A stretch of 64,000 nucleotides of DNA from NCBI RefSeq assembly GCF_016065055.1, contig NZ_CP065856.1:3099836-3163835 (forward strand). The letters run 5' to 3'. The notes under the pieces were generated by a model that was given only the letters and a program-made list of their open reading frames with translations, was not told the origin of the DNA and ran no database searches. The translations under genes and the position numbers were made by a program. This stretch comes from Halosimplex litoreum. GTDB taxonomy: Archaea; Halobacteriota; Halobacteria; Halobacteriales; Haloarculaceae. This document shows positions 57,265 to 63,904 of this stretch, piece by piece (within the stretch, counting starts at the first letter, position 1; every line of letters begins with the position of its first letter).

Positions 57265-57396
57265 ATGGCAACGTGGATCGATGATCCGTTCATGCGCCGG
57301 AGCGTGCTCATCACGCTCCTCTGGCTGCTGGCGATGCTCGTCGGCGGTGTCGTGCTGATACGCTTCGGCGACGTGATCCAGGGACTGTTCGCCTGA
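57265..57396 (+). CDS. 43-aa single-helix membrane peptide
   Basis: ATG 57265, 43 aa: a short N-terminus (MATWIDDPFMRRS) and one hydrophobic helix (residues 14-33, 'VLITLLWLLAMLVGGVVLI') then 'RFGDVIQGLFA'. CTTTTT about 27 bases before the ATG can serve as a TATA element. Codon use is typical for the region (G/C third base). It stands immediately upstream of the vWA/kinase/phosphatase operon and could belong to it or regulate it. The gene is too short for most length cut-offs. Function unknown. Confidence 0.6.
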   Translation: MATWIDDPFMRRSVLITLLWLLAMLVGGVVLIRFGDVIQGLFA

Positions 57397-57404
57397 GGCC
57401 GTCG

Positions 57405-57482
57405 GATCGGCGAGCGGGGACTACCGGATCGGCAGGTGAACGCTATCGATCGGCGAGTGGCGACTGTGCGATCGAGGAGTGG
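57405..57482 (+). promoter_or_regulatory. Four helically phased direct repeats upstream of the vWA operon
   Basis: GATCGGCGAGCGG (57405), GATCGGCAGGTGA (57427), GATCGGCGAGTGG (57448) and GATCGAGGAGTGG (57470) begin 22, 21 and 22 bases apart, that is two helical turns, so all lie on one DNA face. The array ends about 20 bases before an A-rich box (AAAAACACATAC, near 57500) which is 27-35 bases before ATG 57536. It looks like a cooperative regulator-binding array for the phosphorylation operon. Confidence 0.55.
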
Positions 57483-57535
57483 AGCGGACCCGACGGGAGA
57501 AAAACACATACGGGACGAGAGCGAGAGGGCGAACG

Positions 57536-58723
57536 ATGGTAGCAATCGAGACCGACGTCAACCGGCCGTACGTGCCCGCCGACGGGGCGACGCTGACGGC
57601 GACGGTCGACGTCGAACCGGGGACGGGGAGCGGGTCCAGCGAACGGCACATCCTCCTCTGTCTGGACACGAGCGGCTCGATGGACGGGGCGAAACTCGAC
57701 CAGGCGCGGGAGGGCGCCTCGTGGGTGTTCGGCCTCCTCGAACCCGACGATTACGTCGGCATCGTCGCGTTCGACTCCGACGCGGAGGTCGTCATGCGTC
57801 CCCAGCGATGGGGCGACACGGCCCGCGAGGATGCCATGCATCGCGTCGAACAGCTGGGCGCTGGCGGGGGAACCGACATGTACGACGGCCTCGACTCGGC
57901 CCGGACCGCGCTGGACTCGCTGGGGTACCGCCCGGAGACCGACGACGCCGTCCGCCGAGTCCTGTTGCTGTCCGACGGCAAGGACAACAACCACGATCCC
58001 GCGGACTTCCGCGATCTCGCGCGGGACATCGACGGCTCGGGCATCCGCATCCTCTCGGCGGGCATCGGCACCGACTACGAGGAAGAGACCATCCGCACGC
58101 TCGGCACGACCGCCCGCGGCGAGTGGACCCACCTCGACTCGCCCGGCGACATCGAGTCCTTCTTCGGCGAGGCCGTCGAGCAGGCCCAGTCCGTCGTCGC
58201 CACGGAGGCGAGCCTCGAACTCGACGCCGCCGCCGGCGTCGAGGTCAGCGAGGTGTACCGCGCGCTCCCGCAGGCCCAGGAGGTCGACGTGAACTGGGCG
58301 GGCAACACCGCGACGGTTCCGCTGCCCGACCTGGCCGAGCGGGAGGACCAGCGCGTCGTGCTAAAAGTACACGCGCCCACACGCGAGAGCCTCGGCGAGC
58401 ACTCGCTGGTCGATGTGACGCTCACGGCGTCGGGCGAACGGGCGAGCGAGCCGATCGTCGCCGAGTACACCGACGATAGCGCCGAACTGGCGGCACACAA
58501 CGAGGCGGTGTCGCTCGACCACCGCCAGACGGTCGTCCGGACGGAACTCGGGAAGGGCAACGTCGCGGCCGCCGAGACGGAAGTCGAGAAGATGACCCGG
58601 ATCCACGGCGAGGACACGGCCGTCGTCGAGGAGGCCCAACGCCAGACCCGGCTCGTCAGCGAGGGCGGACGCAACGAGCGCGAGAACGCCACCAGGATCG
58701 TCGACGACTCCCGAATCGAATGA
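57536..58723 (+). CDS. vWA domain protein (TerY-P-like module component)
   Basis: 395 aa from ATG 57536. The vWA domain spans about residues 35-215 with a full MIDAS: D44-x-S46-x-S48 ('CLDTSGSMDG'), Thr in 'GGGTDMYDG' and Asp in 'LLSDGKDNN'. Residues 1-35 and 215-310 form a beta-rich outer part ('YRALPQAQEVDVNW', 'VPLPDLAEREDQRVVLKV'); the last 70 residues are helical with a coiled-coil tendency. There is no signal peptide, so it is cytoplasmic. vWA proteins bind partners through a metal ion. Its stop overlaps the kinase start as ATGA. In bacterial TerY-P modules vWA, kinase and PP2C are encoded together, as here. Confidence 0.92.
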   Translation: MVAIETDVNRPYVPADGATLTATVDVEPGTGSGSSERHILLCLDTSGSMDGAKLDQAREGASWVFGLLEPDDYVGIVAFDSDAEVVMRPQRWGDTAREDAMHRVEQLGAGGGTDMYDGLDSARTALDSLGYRPETDDAVRRVLLLSDGKDNNHDPADFRDLARDIDGSGIRILSAGIGTDYEEETIRTLGTTARGEWTHLDSPGDIESFFGEAVEQAQSVVATEASLELDAAAGVEVSEVYRALPQAQEVDVNWAGNTATVPLPDLAEREDQRVVLKVHAPTRESLGEHSLVDVTLTASGERASEPIVAEYTDDSAELAAHNEAVSLDHRQTVVRTELGKGNVAAAETEVEKMTRIHGEDTAVVEEAQRQTRLVSEGGRNERENATRIVDDSRIE

Positions 58724-59952
58724 CGGCCGCGCCCACCCGGGGCGACCTGGTCGTCGGCCGCTACGAACTCGGCGAGGTGGTCGGCGAAGGTGGGTTCGCC
58801 AAGGTGTTCGACGCCGTCGACACCGAGACCGGCGAGGCCGTCGCGCTCAAGTATCCCAACTACGAGGGCAGCCAGAACGACCGCGACATCGTCCGGACCT
58901 ACTTCCAGAAGGAGGCAGAGACGCTGGCGGCGATCCGGGCGGCCGGTGGCCACCCCAACGTCATGTCGCTGCGGCAGGTCACCGAGGACGAGGACGGTAC
59001 GTCGGTCCTCGTCGTGGAACTCGTCGACGGCTACGAGCTCGACGACGCCATCCGGCGGACGGGCCCGCTCGACGACATCGACGAGGTCCGCCAGATCGGG
59101 ATCGCTCTCTGTGACGCGATGAGCTTCCTCCACGAGAACGAGATCGTCTACCGCGACCTGAAGCCGGACAACGTGATGATCACACATCGTGGGGGAACGG
59201 TGACGCCGGTGCTCATCGACTTCAACACGGCGACGGGCTTCGACACGGGCGCCGAGGCCGCCGACCAGACCACCATCGTCGGCCCGTACAAGCCCCGTGA
59301 GGTCGCCGAGGCCGACGCGACCGAGATGCGCCAGGGGCCGTGGTCGGACGTCTACTCCGTCGGGAAGATCCTCCTCTACCTGCTGAAGGGGACGGTCCCG
59401 CGAAAGGACGGCGTCGACCCGCGCGACTTCGGCGCCGAGTGCGAGCCCTACCTCGCCGAGATCGTCGAGAAGGCCACCGCGACCGACTACGAGGACCGCT
59501 ACCGAAACGCGACGGCGATGAAGCGGGTCCTCGAAGCGCGCGACCCAAGTCCGCCGCCGTCGGCGACGGTCCGGTACACGCAGGCCGGCGAGCGCTACAC
59601 GATCTATCCGGGCGACACCATCGGCCGGCGCTACGCCGAGGGCCCCCGGTCGTCGGTCGTGATCGAGGACGAGGAGGAGTACATCTCGACCGTGCAGGTG
59701 CAGTTCGACACCGACGCCGACGGCGAGTGGTTCATCCGCGACCGAAGCCTCAACGGGACGTACGTCCAGACCGGCGGCGGCTGGCAGCGCGTGCTCAGCG
59801 AGGCCGGTCGCGAGCGCCTGGAGCAGTCGGGGGAGGACGCGACCGACGCGGAGGGGAACGTGCCGCCGGAGCTGTACGGGCTGCGCGAGGGCGACCTGGT
59901 CGCGCTCGTCCACCCGAGTTACGGCGTCACCTTCGAGTTCAGTACGGCATAA
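58720..59952 (+). CDS. Ser/Thr protein kinase with C-terminal FHA domain
   Basis: 410 aa from ATG 58720, ATGA-overlapping the vWA gene. Kinase features: Gly loop 'GEGGFAKVF' (22-30), K44 in 'VALKYP', catalytic 'YRDLKPDN' (D146, N151), magnesium Asp D167 in an altered 'DFN' (usual DFG), activation end 'GPYKPREVAE' (instead of APE), and 'SDVYSVGKILLYLLKG'. Catalytic residues are intact, so an active kinase is expected. Residues about 295-405 are FHA-like, with 'RDRSLNGTYVQ' (339-349) giving the phosphothreonine pocket. It probably binds a phosphorylated partner in the same operon. Cytosolic, without a membrane segment. Confidence 0.93.
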   Translation: MTAAPTRGDLVVGRYELGEVVGEGGFAKVFDAVDTETGEAVALKYPNYEGSQNDRDIVRTYFQKEAETLAAIRAAGGHPNVMSLRQVTEDEDGTSVLVVELVDGYELDDAIRRTGPLDDIDEVRQIGIALCDAMSFLHENEIVYRDLKPDNVMITHRGGTVTPVLIDFNTATGFDTGAEAADQTTIVGPYKPREVAEADATEMRQGPWSDVYSVGKILLYLLKGTVPRKDGVDPRDFGAECEPYLAEIVEKATATDYEDRYRNATAMKRVLEARDPSPPPSATVRYTQAGERYTIYPGDTIGRRYAEGPRSSVVIEDEEEYISTVQVQFDTDADGEWFIRDRSLNGTYVQTGGGWQRVLSEAGRERLEQSGEDATDAEGNVPPELYGLREGDLVALVHPSYGVTFEFSTA

Positions 59953-59954
59953 CC

Positions 59955-61142
59955 ATGGACTACGCAACGCACTACGACGTGGGGGACCGCAAGCGCGACG
60001 GGGGGATCAACGAGGACAGCGTCGCGGTCTCCGTGTTCGAACAGGGCCACCGCGCGGGCTTCCGCGGCTACGACCGCGACGAGCCCGACGGTGACGAAAC
60101 GGGCGATTCGGACGGCGATGGGAGCGATGGGAGCGCGCGACCCGCGGGACCGGACGGCGACGCCGACCCACAGTCCGACGAGGCCGCCGCCGACGGGGAG
60201 GCCGAGCGCGCCACCGAACCGAGCCCCGACCCGGACAACCGGAGCGCGGCGGTGTTCGCGCTCGCCGACGGCGCCGGCGGCCACGACGCCGGCGACGCCG
60301 CCTCCTACATCGCGACGACGGCCGTCTGCGAGCACCTCGCGGGTACGGCCGTTTCGGCCGCGCGCAGCGAGCCCGCCGGGTTCGACGTGGCCGTCGACGA
60401 GCCGCTCTCGGCCCCGCCGCGGGACGCGGACCTCGAATCGGCGGTCGCCGAGGCGGTCGTCGCGGCCCACCGAGAGGTCCTCGAATACGCCGCCGCCGCC
60501 GGCGAGCAGGCCCACGCCACCGTCGTCGCCGGCGTCTGCGTCGGCGGCCGCTGTCACTACGGCTGGGTCGGCGACTCCCGGGCGTACATCGTCAACGCCG
60601 CCCGCGACGAGATCCTGCCGCTGACCACGGACCACGCGGTCGTCCAGCGGCTGCGCGACGCCGGCGAGATCGACGACGTAGAGGCGCTGGTCCACCCGCG
60701 AGGCAACGAGATCACGCGGGCACTCGGCGGGAGCGGCCGCGCGGACCCCGAGACGACGACCGTCGACGTGGAGACGGCGACGGTTCCGCTCTACCGCGAG
60801 GACGTGCTGCTCGTTACGAGTGACGGGCTGTTGGACGCCCAGACCGAGGCGGCGAAGCTCTACGAGTGGTACGTCGACGCCGGCCGGGACGACGAGATGG
60901 CGGCCGTGGTCCGCGACCGCGCGGTCACCGACGGAGAGATCCGCGAGGCGGTGCTGTCGGCCGAGTCACTGGCCGACGCGGCCGAGCGGCTGGTCGGGCT
61001 GGCCAACGACCGCGGCGGCAAGGACAACTGCTCGACGGTCCTCCTGCACGACGGGACGCTCCCGCCGACGCCCGAGGACCCGCCCGCCCGGGCGGCCGGC
61101 GCTCGCAAGTCGGTGGAGGACCGCGAGACGCGGGTGCAATGA
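59955..61142 (+). CDS. PP2C family Ser/Thr protein phosphatase
   Basis: 395 aa from ATG 59955, two bases after the kinase stop. PP2C motifs: 'RDGGINEDSV' (motif 1, Asp at the metal site), 'VFALADGAGGHDAGDAAS' (metal-binding DGxGGH), 'HATVVAGVCVGGRCHYGWVGDSRAYIV' (GDSR), 'LVTSDGLLD' and 'GGKDNCSTVLL' (final metal Asp-Asn). An acidic, low-complexity insertion of about 55 residues sits between motifs 1 and 2. It should reverse phosphorylation by the kinase upstream. The stop codon lies inside the loop of a hairpin in a tandem repeat. Its last 30 residues are polar and disordered. Confidence 0.94.
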   Translation: MDYATHYDVGDRKRDGGINEDSVAVSVFEQGHRAGFRGYDRDEPDGDETGDSDGDGSDGSARPAGPDGDADPQSDEAAADGEAERATEPSPDPDNRSAAVFALADGAGGHDAGDAASYIATTAVCEHLAGTAVSAARSEPAGFDVAVDEPLSAPPRDADLESAVAEAVVAAHREVLEYAAAAGEQAHATVVAGVCVGGRCHYGWVGDSRAYIVNAARDEILPLTTDHAVVQRLRDAGEIDDVEALVHPRGNEITRALGGSGRADPETTTVDVETATVPLYREDVLLVTSDGLLDAQTEAAKLYEWYVDAGRDDEMAAVVRDRAVTDGEIREAVLSAESLADAAERLVGLANDRGGKDNCSTVLLHDGTLPPTPEDPPARAAGARKSVEDRETRVQ

Positions 61143-61250
61143 GCGTCTCGGGATCGGGAGCCGAGCGACCCGTGAGCAGCGAGACGCGGGTGCAATGAGC
61201 GTCTCGGGATCGGGAGCGGGGAACGAAGTGACCCGCGAGCGGCGAGACGC
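61123..61250 (+). repeat. 56-base tandem repeat with 11-base-loop hairpins after the phosphatase gene
   Basis: A 39-base block beginning GCGAGACGCGGGTGCAATGA is identical at 61123-61161 and 61179-61217, and its first nine bases return at 61242. Each block folds as GAGACGC/GCGTCTC around the 11-base loop GGGTGCAATGA. In copy 1 this loop (61132-61142) contains the PP2C stop codon. GCGGG/CCCGC at 61216-61236 encloses GAACGAAGTGA, the same loop type as at 17687 and 17715. No gene is seen in the 245-base gap; its right end carries the promoter of the zinc-ribbon gene. Confidence 0.8.
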
Positions 61251-61387
61251 TCGTCGAACACGACTGAGGCGGTGGCGCGGCCGACGGGGTCGGCGCGGTC
61301 GCCCGCGGTCGCGCGGTTCTCGACAGTCCGTCGCACCGACACGACGGGGCAACTGTTTTGATGACCGGCCTGCATATGCCGACAGCT

Positions 61388-62668
61388 ATGTCGCACAGCA
61401 CGAGCGGGACGGTCGAATGCCCCCTCTGTGGGGAAGACTTCGACCCGACCGCCGCGGGGGGCTGGTGTACGAACTCCGACTGCGGGGAGTGGCAACACGA
61501 AGCGGCCGTACCCGAGAGGGACGCCGCGGCCGACGCCGGAGAGACCGACGAGGAGGTCGACGCTGCCGGGACCGGTTCGGCGGACGATCCGATCCCGGAC
61601 GCCGAAGTCGACGGAGCGGACGGGGAGCCGGCCGACGTGGCCGGCGCGTCCCACGACAGTGACGTCGACGGGAGTACGGTCGACCACGAGGCCGAGACCG
61701 ACGACCCAGACGAGGGGGCAACCGGCACGGGACCGACGGCGGCTAAGGCCGACCCGGAGGACGCGGCCGACGGCGTCGCGGCCGCCGAGGCTGGTGCCGC
61801 AGTCGCCGCCCCGGACGGTGACGCGGCCGACGCCCTGGACGGTGACCGATCGGAATCGACCGACACCGGGGCGGCCGACGCCCTGGACGGTGACCGATCG
61901 GAATCGACCGACACCGGGGCGGCCGACGAGGGATCCGCTCCCGCGGTGGACGGCGAACCGGCGGCCGAGACGAACGAGCGAGCGGCCGAAACCGAGGCCG
62001 ACGTCGACGCCGACGAGACGTCCGACCTTTCCTGTCCGGGCTGTGGCGAATCGGTCGGTGCCGAGGACAACTTCTGCGCCAACTGCGGCGAGGACGTCTC
62101 GACGCTGGAGCCGGGACCGCTGACGACGTGTCCGGCCTGCGAGAGCGAGGTCGACGCGGAGGACAACTTCTGTGCCTCGTGTGGCGAGGACCTCGACGCG
62201 TACCGGTCGGGCGGCGACGCGAGTGCCGCCGACGAGGCCGACGACGACGGCGCCGCGTCGGCTGGTGGCGCCGATACCGCGAGCGACGACCGTTCGGTGG
62301 AGCGGCCACACGGTGCGGACGCGGACGCAGCGGCGGCGGCCGACGGGGATTCGGCGGCCGAAGGGCCGGAGTCGCTGGTGCTGGTCGTGCGTAACCGCGA
62401 AGTTCAAGTGTGGGACGGGGATACGGTCGGTCGAACCGTCCGGAGTATCGTGATGAACACGGGCGGCGACGAGGACGACGCGGTGCGCATCCACCGCGAA
62501 CACGTGCGGTTCGTCCGTGAGGACGGGCAGTTCTACCTCGTCGCGCTCGGGCAGAACCCGACGGTCGTCGACGGCGAGTCGCTCGACGAGGGCGAGCGGG
62601 CCCCCGTCTCGCCGGGCGACCGGATCGAACTCTCCGGCGTCGCGACGCTGCGCGTCCAGGCCCCCTGA
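61388..62668 (+). CDS. Triple zinc-ribbon protein with C-terminal FHA-like domain
   Basis: 426 aa from ATG 61388 ('SHSTSGTVECPLCG'); ATGs at 61358 and 61376 are alternatives. An N-terminal ribbon (CPLC...CTNSDC) is followed by about 170 acidic, low-complexity residues with an exact 16-residue duplication, then two more ribbons (CPGC...CANC and CPAC...CASC). The C-terminal 85 residues ('SLVLVVRNREVQVWDGDTVGRTVRSI', 'HREHVRFVREDGQFYLVALGQNPTVVDG') have the FHA fold with G-R, H-x-x-R and N-P-T in the phosphopeptide site. It is likely a phosphothreonine adaptor for the kinase and phosphatase. The disordered middle may be the phosphorylated region. Confidence 0.88.
   Translation: MSHSTSGTVECPLCGEDFDPTAAGGWCTNSDCGEWQHEAAVPERDAAADAGETDEEVDAAGTGSADDPIPDAEVDGADGEPADVAGASHDSDVDGSTVDHEAETDDPDEGATGTGPTAAKADPEDAADGVAAAEAGAAVAAPDGDAADALDGDRSESTDTGAADALDGDRSESTDTGAADEGSAPAVDGEPAAETNERAAETEADVDADETSDLSCPGCGESVGAEDNFCANCGEDVSTLEPGPLTTCPACESEVDAEDNFCASCGEDLDAYRSGGDASAADEADDDGAASAGGADTASDDRSVERPHGADADAAAAADGDSAAEGPESLVLVVRNREVQVWDGDTVGRTVRSIVMNTGGDEDDAVRIHREHVRFVREDGQFYLVALGQNPTVVDGESLDEGERAPVSPGDRIELSGVATLRVQAP
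61823..61918 (+). repeat. Exact 48-base in-frame tandem duplication inside the zinc-ribbon/FHA gene
   Basis: Bases 61823-61870 and 61871-61918 are identical, each starting GCGGCCGACGCC and encoding 16 residues (the unit begins AADALDGDRSES). Complete identity shows a recent event and a copy number free to change, within the acidic linker. Confidence 0.93.
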
Positions 62669-62695
62669 CCCCGCGGCTCGGCCCGACGAGCGAGC

Positions 62696-63904
62696 ATGGA
62701 TACCAGAGACACGCGCCGTGAACTCGGCAGGTCCGTCCGCCTTCTCGCAGACGAGGAGCGGTGGCTGTTCCTCGGACTCCTCGCCGGGGCCGCGGGCTAC
62801 CTCATCTGGCTGGCCGGGACCGGCGTCGCCGTCTCGCAGATCGCCGACCTCGCTGTCGGCGCCTACACCGTCGACCCCTGGTCGACCGAAGCCGCGGGGC
62901 TCGCGGTGACGTTCGCCGTCCTCTGGGTGCTCGTCCCGTCGGCCGTCGCCGTCCGCTACGTCGTCGGCAAGCTCACGAACCTGCGGGGGAACGTCGAGCA
63001 GTGTTACCGCTTCGACCGGCCGCTGGTGGCGCTGGTCCCGCCGCTCGTTCTGCTGGGCGTCGCCGTCGCGGTCGGCGCGGCCCGCGGCGTCGCCACGTGG
63101 GACGTGCTCGCGCTGCTGGCGGTCGCGAACACGCTCCTGCTCGTCCGGACCGTCGCCTACGGCTACCGGGTGTACTCCTTCTCGGTGCCGCGCTTGCTTC
63201 AGGCGCTCGTGTTCGCCTCCGCCGTCGTCGCGACGACCGCGACCGTCTCGCGGGCCGCATCGCTGGGCGGCCAGACCGCGCTGGTCGAGGCGGCAACGGT
63301 GCGATACGGCGTGAGCGACGTAGTGTTCGGCGAGGTGAGCCGTGCCGGATTCACGGCGCCGCTGCTCCCGCTCGCCGCGGTCGCGGCGCCGGCCACGCTC
63401 GCGCTCGCGTACGTCTGGCTCCAGTTGTTCGCCAGCCTGCTCGTCCGGATCAGACGGCCGAACGTGCCCCGTTCGGCGATCCGCGCCGGCCAGCGCTACC
63501 CGCAGGTCGTCCAGCCCGGCACGAGCGACCGCCTCGCGATGGGCACGGCCTCCGGGGGTGGCTCCGGGAGCGAATCCGGCGGCGCGTCGTCCGGCGGGGG
63601 ATCGCGATCGACCGACGCCGCCGACGCGTCGTCCGGCGGCTCGTCCGCCGATACCGCGTCGACGGCCGACGATCCGACGAGCGACGCGTCCGGGTCGGCC
63701 GACTCGAGCGGGGACTCCGTCGAGCCCGCGGGGCAGACGCGCGTGTTCTCACCGCCGGAGGACGCCGAAGCCCCCGGTGCCGACGCCGGGAGCGGCGGAA
63801 CGGCGGTGAAAAACGAGTTCTGCCCCATCTGCGGGGAGACCTACGCCGCCGAACCCGACCGCACGAACTGCCCGAACTGCAACGCCGTCCTCGACCGGGA
63901 CTGA
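62696..63904 (+). CDS. Six-helix membrane protein with C-terminal zinc ribbon
   Basis: 402 aa from ATG 62696, 27 bases after the previous stop. Helices at about 23-47, 67-90, 109-130, 137-158, 167-190 and 220-250 have short loops. A Ser/Gly/Asp-rich linker (about 275-370) leads to a zinc ribbon, C-x2-C ('FCPICGETY') and C-x2-C ('NCPNCNAVL'), residues 378-400, on the cytoplasmic side if the topology is even. It is probably the membrane member of the phosphorylation circuit; a ribbon shared with the preceding protein suggests they interact. No family recognised. The gene is convergent with the partial gene at 63951. Confidence 0.82.
   Translation: MDTRDTRRELGRSVRLLADEERWLFLGLLAGAAGYLIWLAGTGVAVSQIADLAVGAYTVDPWSTEAAGLAVTFAVLWVLVPSAVAVRYVVGKLTNLRGNVEQCYRFDRPLVALVPPLVLLGVAVAVGAARGVATWDVLALLAVANTLLLVRTVAYGYRVYSFSVPRLLQALVFASAVVATTATVSRAASLGGQTALVEAATVRYGVSDVVFGEVSRAGFTAPLLPLAAVAAPATLALAYVWLQLFASLLVRIRRPNVPRSAIRAGQRYPQVVQPGTSDRLAMGTASGGGSGSESGGASSGGGSRSTDAADASSGGSSADTASTADDPTSDASGSADSSGDSVEPAGQTRVFSPPEDAEAPGADAGSGGTAVKNEFCPICGETYAAEPDRTNCPNCNAVLDRD

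Follow-up and report, generated by a model that had tools for sequence, protein, structure and literature searches.

We analysed a 64,000-nucleotide stretch of the Halosimplex litoreum genome (the window; bases 3099836–3163835 of a single-contig genome of 4.16 Mb), which carries a putative phosphothreonine-signalling cassette of six collinear + strand genes at positions 57265–63904, delineated by open reading frame calls and Pfam matches. Opposite-strand neighbours flank these genes, with ABC transporter genes upstream and an SDR gene downstream (L002, 9787–10929), and we therefore regard the cassette as bounded.

Genes of the cassette

The first gene (57265–57396, +) encodes a 43-amino-acid membrane peptide, TM43, for which hydropathy predicts a single helix, and which was found only in Halosimplex and several metagenome-assembled genomes (MAGs), upstream of the cassette. 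After a gap of 139 bases follows the gene for a vWA protein (57536–58723, +; VWA, 62 bits), with its vWA domain set in a beta-sandwich, a C-terminal helical bundle and an intact metal-ion-dependent adhesion site (MIDAS; DTSGS...T...D). The next gene overlaps it as ATGA at 58720–58723 and encodes a Ser/Thr protein kinase (58720–59952, +; Pkinase, 112 bits) with the motifs YRDLKPDN and DFN and a C-terminal FHA domain (GR...SLNGT; 59617–59772, +; 27.7 bits); first kinases of the cassette read YRD in place of HRD. Two bases past the kinase stop begins the gene for a PP2C-family Ser/Thr phosphatase (59955–61142, +; PP2C_2, 39 bits), whose metal-site motifs were seen by eye. A 245-base gap separates it from the gene for an ArnA-like protein (61388–62668, +) that joins three zinc ribbons, with zinc-ribbon matches in Pfam, through a long acidic linker to a C-terminal FHA domain (VGR...IHREH...NPT; 62429–62632, +; 31.4 bits); an exact 48-nt repeat lies inside this linker at 61823–61918. 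The last gene (62696–63904, +) encodes a membrane protein in which hydropathy fits about six helices, followed by a disordered linker and a C-terminal zinc ribbon (CPIC...CPNC; 63818–63883, +) that scores under the Pfam cut-off, though it is clear by eye. The AlphaFold model of this protein is poor, with a predicted local distance difference test (pLDDT) score of 46.

This layout agrees with a first-pass annotation of the window, which had described five or six collinear genes here (we count six), the ATGA overlap and the two-base spacing before the PP2C gene, an FHA domain on the kinase, three zinc ribbons joined to an FHA-like domain in the fourth gene (the peptide gene apart) and, in the fifth, a six-helix membrane protein ending in a zinc ribbon.

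Conservation and distribution

The kinase is present in 20 of 195 Halobacteriales genomes, with its best named relatives in Halosimplex (96% identity), and the vWA gene adjoins it in all 20. In the family to which the window belongs, the order is vWA, kinase, PP2C, zinc-ribbon/FHA and membrane gene, and three genomes of a single genus with this arrangement (L112–L114) yielded no membrane gene. Other families place the zinc-ribbon/FHA gene before the vWA gene and have a divergent membrane gene on the opposite strand, outside the cassette; often a second kinase gene follows. Their PP2C proteins extend further at the C-terminus and show FHA-like matches there, confirmed by Pfam as FHA for three cassettes. 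Pairwise identities of the vWA, kinase, PP2C and zinc-ribbon/FHA proteins correlate with one another (r 0.88–0.95, 78 pairs). One genome, G191, holds both arrangements, one each (L106 and L121), and the proteins of its second cassette are 47–71% identical to those of other families versus 31–46% to those of its first. Since this second set resembles the proteins of other families, whole gene sets appear to travel together between families. The cassette occurs in all sampled genomes of two listed genera and is missing from several sister genera, and the flanking genes vary from genus to genus. Queries with P0002 (1e-30) and P0003 (1e-5) gave no plasmid matches.

FHA domains are nearly confined to the cassette: across the 195 genomes, comparison of coordinates places 22 of 23 Pfam FHA domains inside it, a count that is a lower bound, as the scan overlooked cassette FHA domains in the window genome and in a related genus. 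The single match outside lies in genome G081, on a contig that matches none of the cassette profiles. Within the H. litoreum genome the cassette gene is also the single PP2C_2 match, and two further kinase-like genes score above the cut-off. The cassette is a nearly closed system. The idea that these signalling genes are only loose neighbours with no pathway in common, to which the gaps before two genes and the varying gene order between families might point, has very little to recommend it in view of the unbroken vWA–kinase adjacency, the correlated distances, the two whole sets in G191 and this confinement of FHA domains. The cassette is a real unit and not a chance assembly. The first-pass annotation had proposed a phosphorylation module of kinase, PP2C and vWA protein with FHA readers and a membrane partner, and had asked whether the genes keep together in other haloarchaea; they do so as a conserved unit, and are not rarely adjacent.

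Counterparts also exist in bacteria. One MAG (L062, 9986–16725) and four relatives (L164–L166 and L168) encode a kinase, a PP2C, an ArnB-type vWA protein and a zinc-ribbon/FHA protein, the same protein types as the cassette and likewise mutually adjacent; unlike the cassette, these clusters yielded no detectable membrane zinc-ribbon protein. In the bacterial clusters that were read, the kinase has both a zinc ribbon and an FHA domain, and some include a second kinase. A further cluster (L167) comprises a kinase, a PP2C, a vWA protein and a second kinase, with no zinc-ribbon/FHA gene detected, and in L062 an AIM24-family gene comes after the cluster. In view of these counterparts, this kind of module is either of greater age than the haloarchaeal cassette or moves more readily. 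Near distant vWA homologues in genomes G023, G110 and G115, the cassette kinase was not found within about 9 kb.

Comparison with ArnA–ArnB and TerY-P

The ArnA–ArnB pair of Sulfolobus acidocaldarius (Saci_1210/Saci_1211; PDB 5A8I and 8S05), which has the ArnB paralogue vWA2/ArnE (5A8J) beside it, is a motility switch in the archaellum regulatory network and represses archaellum expression. The cassette vWA protein matches Sulfolobus ArnB in sequence at 1.2e-8 and vWA2 at 2e-6. Its AlphaFold model (pLDDT 74) was compared with known structures, of which we considered those covering most of the model. Chain 8S05_A of ArnB aligned over 329 residues (Z 25.0, rmsd 7.0 (root-mean-square deviation), model residues 1–382), and 4FX5 over 296 residues (Z 26.2, rmsd 5.3, model residues 8–321); the large rmsd points to a probable difference in how the model places the domains. 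Lone vWA domains in the structure list align only with model residues of about 31–222. According to the model, the protein is of the vWA/beta-sandwich/helical-bundle type, a full-length three-domain protein like ArnB.

The likeness extends to the partners. ArnA consists of a zinc ribbon, a flexible linker and an FHA domain (PMC10470591, PMC6509490), and the product of 61388–62668 likewise has N-terminal zinc ribbons, a long linker and a C-terminal FHA domain, with three ribbons versus one in ArnA. In Sulfolobus, a zinc-finger contact holds ArnA and ArnB together loosely and the FHA domain tightens the complex after phosphorylation (PMC12852372): a kinase phosphorylates C-terminal threonines of ArnB (peptides IETTRR and EQTR), which the ArnA FHA domain then binds. 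The cassette vWA protein also has a threonine-bearing C-terminus, and both systems have a kinase and a phosphatase for the pair, a role that is predicted for the cassette enzymes. Unlike the Arn system, the cassette carries its own kinase and phosphatase genes and adds a membrane zinc-ribbon protein and the 43-amino-acid peptide; it also belongs to a distant archaeal group, and nothing found links it to archaellum control. Judged by sequence and predicted structure, the Sulfolobus ArnA–ArnB phospho-switch is the closest known system.

The first-pass annotation had instead likened the cassette to the TerY-P triad, which groups a TerY-like vWA protein with a PP2C and with a kinase that ends in a zinc ribbon or OB fold (Anantharaman 2012, as summarised in PMC11090510). 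The trio of vWA, kinase and PP2C genes encoded together bears this label out. The rest of it is not supported: the cassette kinase ends in an FHA domain, with no zinc-ribbon match in Pfam, the vWA protein has a beta-sandwich and helical bundle of the ArnB type, and the cassette adds FHA readers and a membrane protein. Profile scans with NCBIfam and PADLOC, which do not amount to a direct comparison with TerY, gave no TerY match to the vWA protein. The absence of visible Ter genes, noted for the window, extends for TerD to the whole genome, in which PF02342 has no match (a control search was positive in two genomes; TerB and TerC were not searched for). A TerY-P variant in the strict sense is not supported, given the FHA C-terminus of the kinase, the ArnB-type vWA protein and the failure to find TerD. 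The nearer comparison with Sulfolobus ArnA and ArnB, as well as the conserved threonine motifs described below, had been missed.

The shared trio also raises the question of a defence or stress module akin to TerY-P or to kinase-kinase-phosphatase (KKP) systems, with the kinase and PP2C gating a toxic or nucleic-acid effector under phage or xenobiotic stress. We consider this improbable. Some cassettes do combine two kinases with a PP2C, as KKP does (PMC11341870), and the kinase matches PADLOC kinase profiles, PD-T4-6 among them; however, such matches are generic to Hanks kinases, and we set them aside as a guide to defence function. The cassette has no effector gene, TerD was not found, and no recurring defence or nuclease neighbour was seen when flanks were compared by clustering and not annotated singly. 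Its site is moreover stable in one genus, where five loci share the same flanks and the cassette is present in all eight sampled genomes.

Threonine motifs and a possible phosphothreonine switch

Two conserved threonine motifs lie in stretches of low predicted order. The tail of the vWA protein, which has low pLDDT, carries T386-R-I-V (58691–58702, +), in which T386 is invariant in alignment A1. In the membrane protein, the segment linking the last helix to the zinc ribbon varies and has low confidence, but T348-R349-V350 is invariant in it (alignment A2), as part of the motif T348-R-V-F (63737–63748, +), and families with strongly differing membrane parts have TRIF, TRIY or TQIF at the same place. 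With one sequence per lineage, the pattern T-[RQS]-[VIL]-[FY] occurs in the membrane linker of 15/15 lineages versus 0.13 expected from shuffled linkers, and T-x-[VIL]-[hydrophobic] in the vWA tail of 14/15 versus 0.78 expected; the lineages share ancestry and the patterns were picked after seeing the sequences, so these counts give no strict probability.

Hydrophobic residues at +2 and +3 after the threonine are a feature of proven FHA ligands such as the tails of DgcB (LEKpTSIV) and OdhI (PMC6733907), and GarA is phosphorylated at an ETTS motif. Both the vWA tail and the linker of the membrane protein fit this pattern, with a threonine followed by hydrophobic residues at +2 and +3 in a disordered stretch. 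Their motifs thus match the kind that FHA domains bind, which makes them candidate phosphothreonine ligands, and they are new here. GarA and OdhI of Actinobacteria and DgcB of Bdellovibrio similarly use a disordered-tail threonine with hydrophobic +2/+3 residues (PMC6733907), with the difference that their tail is part of the FHA protein itself, whereas in the cassette it belongs to the partners. A genome search with the longer pattern TRV[FY] gave two places, one of them the membrane gene, versus three for the control, and no more targets can therefore be named.

The PP2C tail holds a weaker candidate motif, T392-R-V-Q (61128–61139, +). Tails of relatives read DRETVIL, DRQTKII and ERDTVIM. 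A tandem duplication (61123–61234; 56 nt, 82% alike) takes in the last part of the PP2C gene together with the spacer behind it, and may have rewritten the tail, which reads ETRVQ here and ETLLEHD or ETLVEHD in Halosimplex relatives.

Based on these sequence motifs, the structural model and the analogy with Sulfolobus, we lean slightly towards the view that the cassette is a self-contained phosphothreonine switch of the ArnA–ArnB type. A stimulus would enter via the membrane protein or the kinase, and the kinase would phosphorylate T386 of the vWA protein and T348 of the membrane protein, docking through its own FHA domain on partners that are already phosphorylated. The ArnA-like protein would then grip the phosphorylated vWA protein tightly, with the zinc ribbon as the loose and the FHA domain as the tight contact, and the phosphorylated linker could also hold it at the membrane. 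PP2C would erase the tags and reset the switch, and the output would probably be on gene expression, as for ArnAB. More tentatively, we suggest that haloarchaea and some bacteria possess a complete cassette switch with a writer, an eraser, two readers and two tagged partners, that the scattered ArnA, ArnB and ArnC of Sulfolobus are its dispersed relative, and that the membrane T-x-[VI]-[FY] motif acts in trans as an FHA ligand that shifts the ArnA-like protein and the kinase between the membrane and the vWA protein.

Several observations weigh against an ArnAB-type switch. The Arn phosphatase is a PP2A and the ArnC-type kinase has an OB fold and TPR, where the cassette has a PP2C and an FHA-bearing kinase; therefore we call the cassette ArnAB-type and not an Arn orthologue. 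The three-domain architecture is shared beyond ArnB, since 4FX5 scores as well, and the vWA protein matched no Pfam profile for the C-terminal domain of ArnB (E 0.1; the presence of this profile in our Pfam copy is unconfirmed). In the window family the DFG motif of the kinase reads DFN, whereas the bacterial relatives read have DFG. In the same family, the zinc-ribbon protein carries in its FHA domain a His at a position that is Ser in many others. The PP2C tail fits the strict pattern poorly (4/10 lineages versus 0.52 expected), though the threonine itself is kept, and the FHA tally is, as said, a minimum. Finally, reduced cassettes in two MAGs (L032, 4436–7691; L035, 7009–10903) have lost vWA and PP2C and retain the peptide, kinase, zinc-ribbon/FHA and membrane genes, which suggests that these four may also function without the other two. 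In L032 the zinc-ribbon gene has a truncated FHA domain, so decay is possible there.

These reduced sets would also suit a membrane-stress sensor, in which the vWA and zinc-ribbon proteins are metal-dependent adaptors (through MIDAS and zinc, respectively), FHA reading of phosphothreonine merely localises the kinase, and the vWA protein serves as a scaffold with no relation to ArnAB signalling. The intact MIDAS, the one-helix peptide and the many invariant residues in loops of the membrane protein, cytosolic under a six-helix N-in model, are consistent with such a sensor, as are ArnB-like vWA proteins encoded elsewhere without a kinase, for example beside Hsp70 and GrpE genes on a Haloplanus plasmid. 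However, it leaves the conservation of the vWA-tail threonine motif unexplained, and we judge it unlikely.

An ArnAB-type switch would place the Sulfolobus pair in a wider family, with individual threonines named for mutation. The cassette puts FHA-based signalling in Halobacteriales, a group with genetic tools, and gathers kinase, phosphatase and likely substrates in a single locus, so that a whole archaeal phosphothreonine pathway could be deleted, rebuilt and assayed together.

Related domains occur in other contexts. On the Haloplanus plasmid (L178, 5989–9096), the ArnB-like vWA gene (32% identity) adjoins the Hsp70-family and GrpE genes, with no kinase listed nearby. Deinococcus and cyanobacterial plasmids (L179, L180 and L181) carry a MerR regulator gene that overlaps another gene, the one with the vWA match; in L181 this other gene is annotated as a macro-domain gene. 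The window itself encodes a second kinase-like protein, P0007 (28909–30525; PF00069, 55 bits), which is probably a pseudokinase, since its catalytic loop reads HGALDP in place of HRDLKP.

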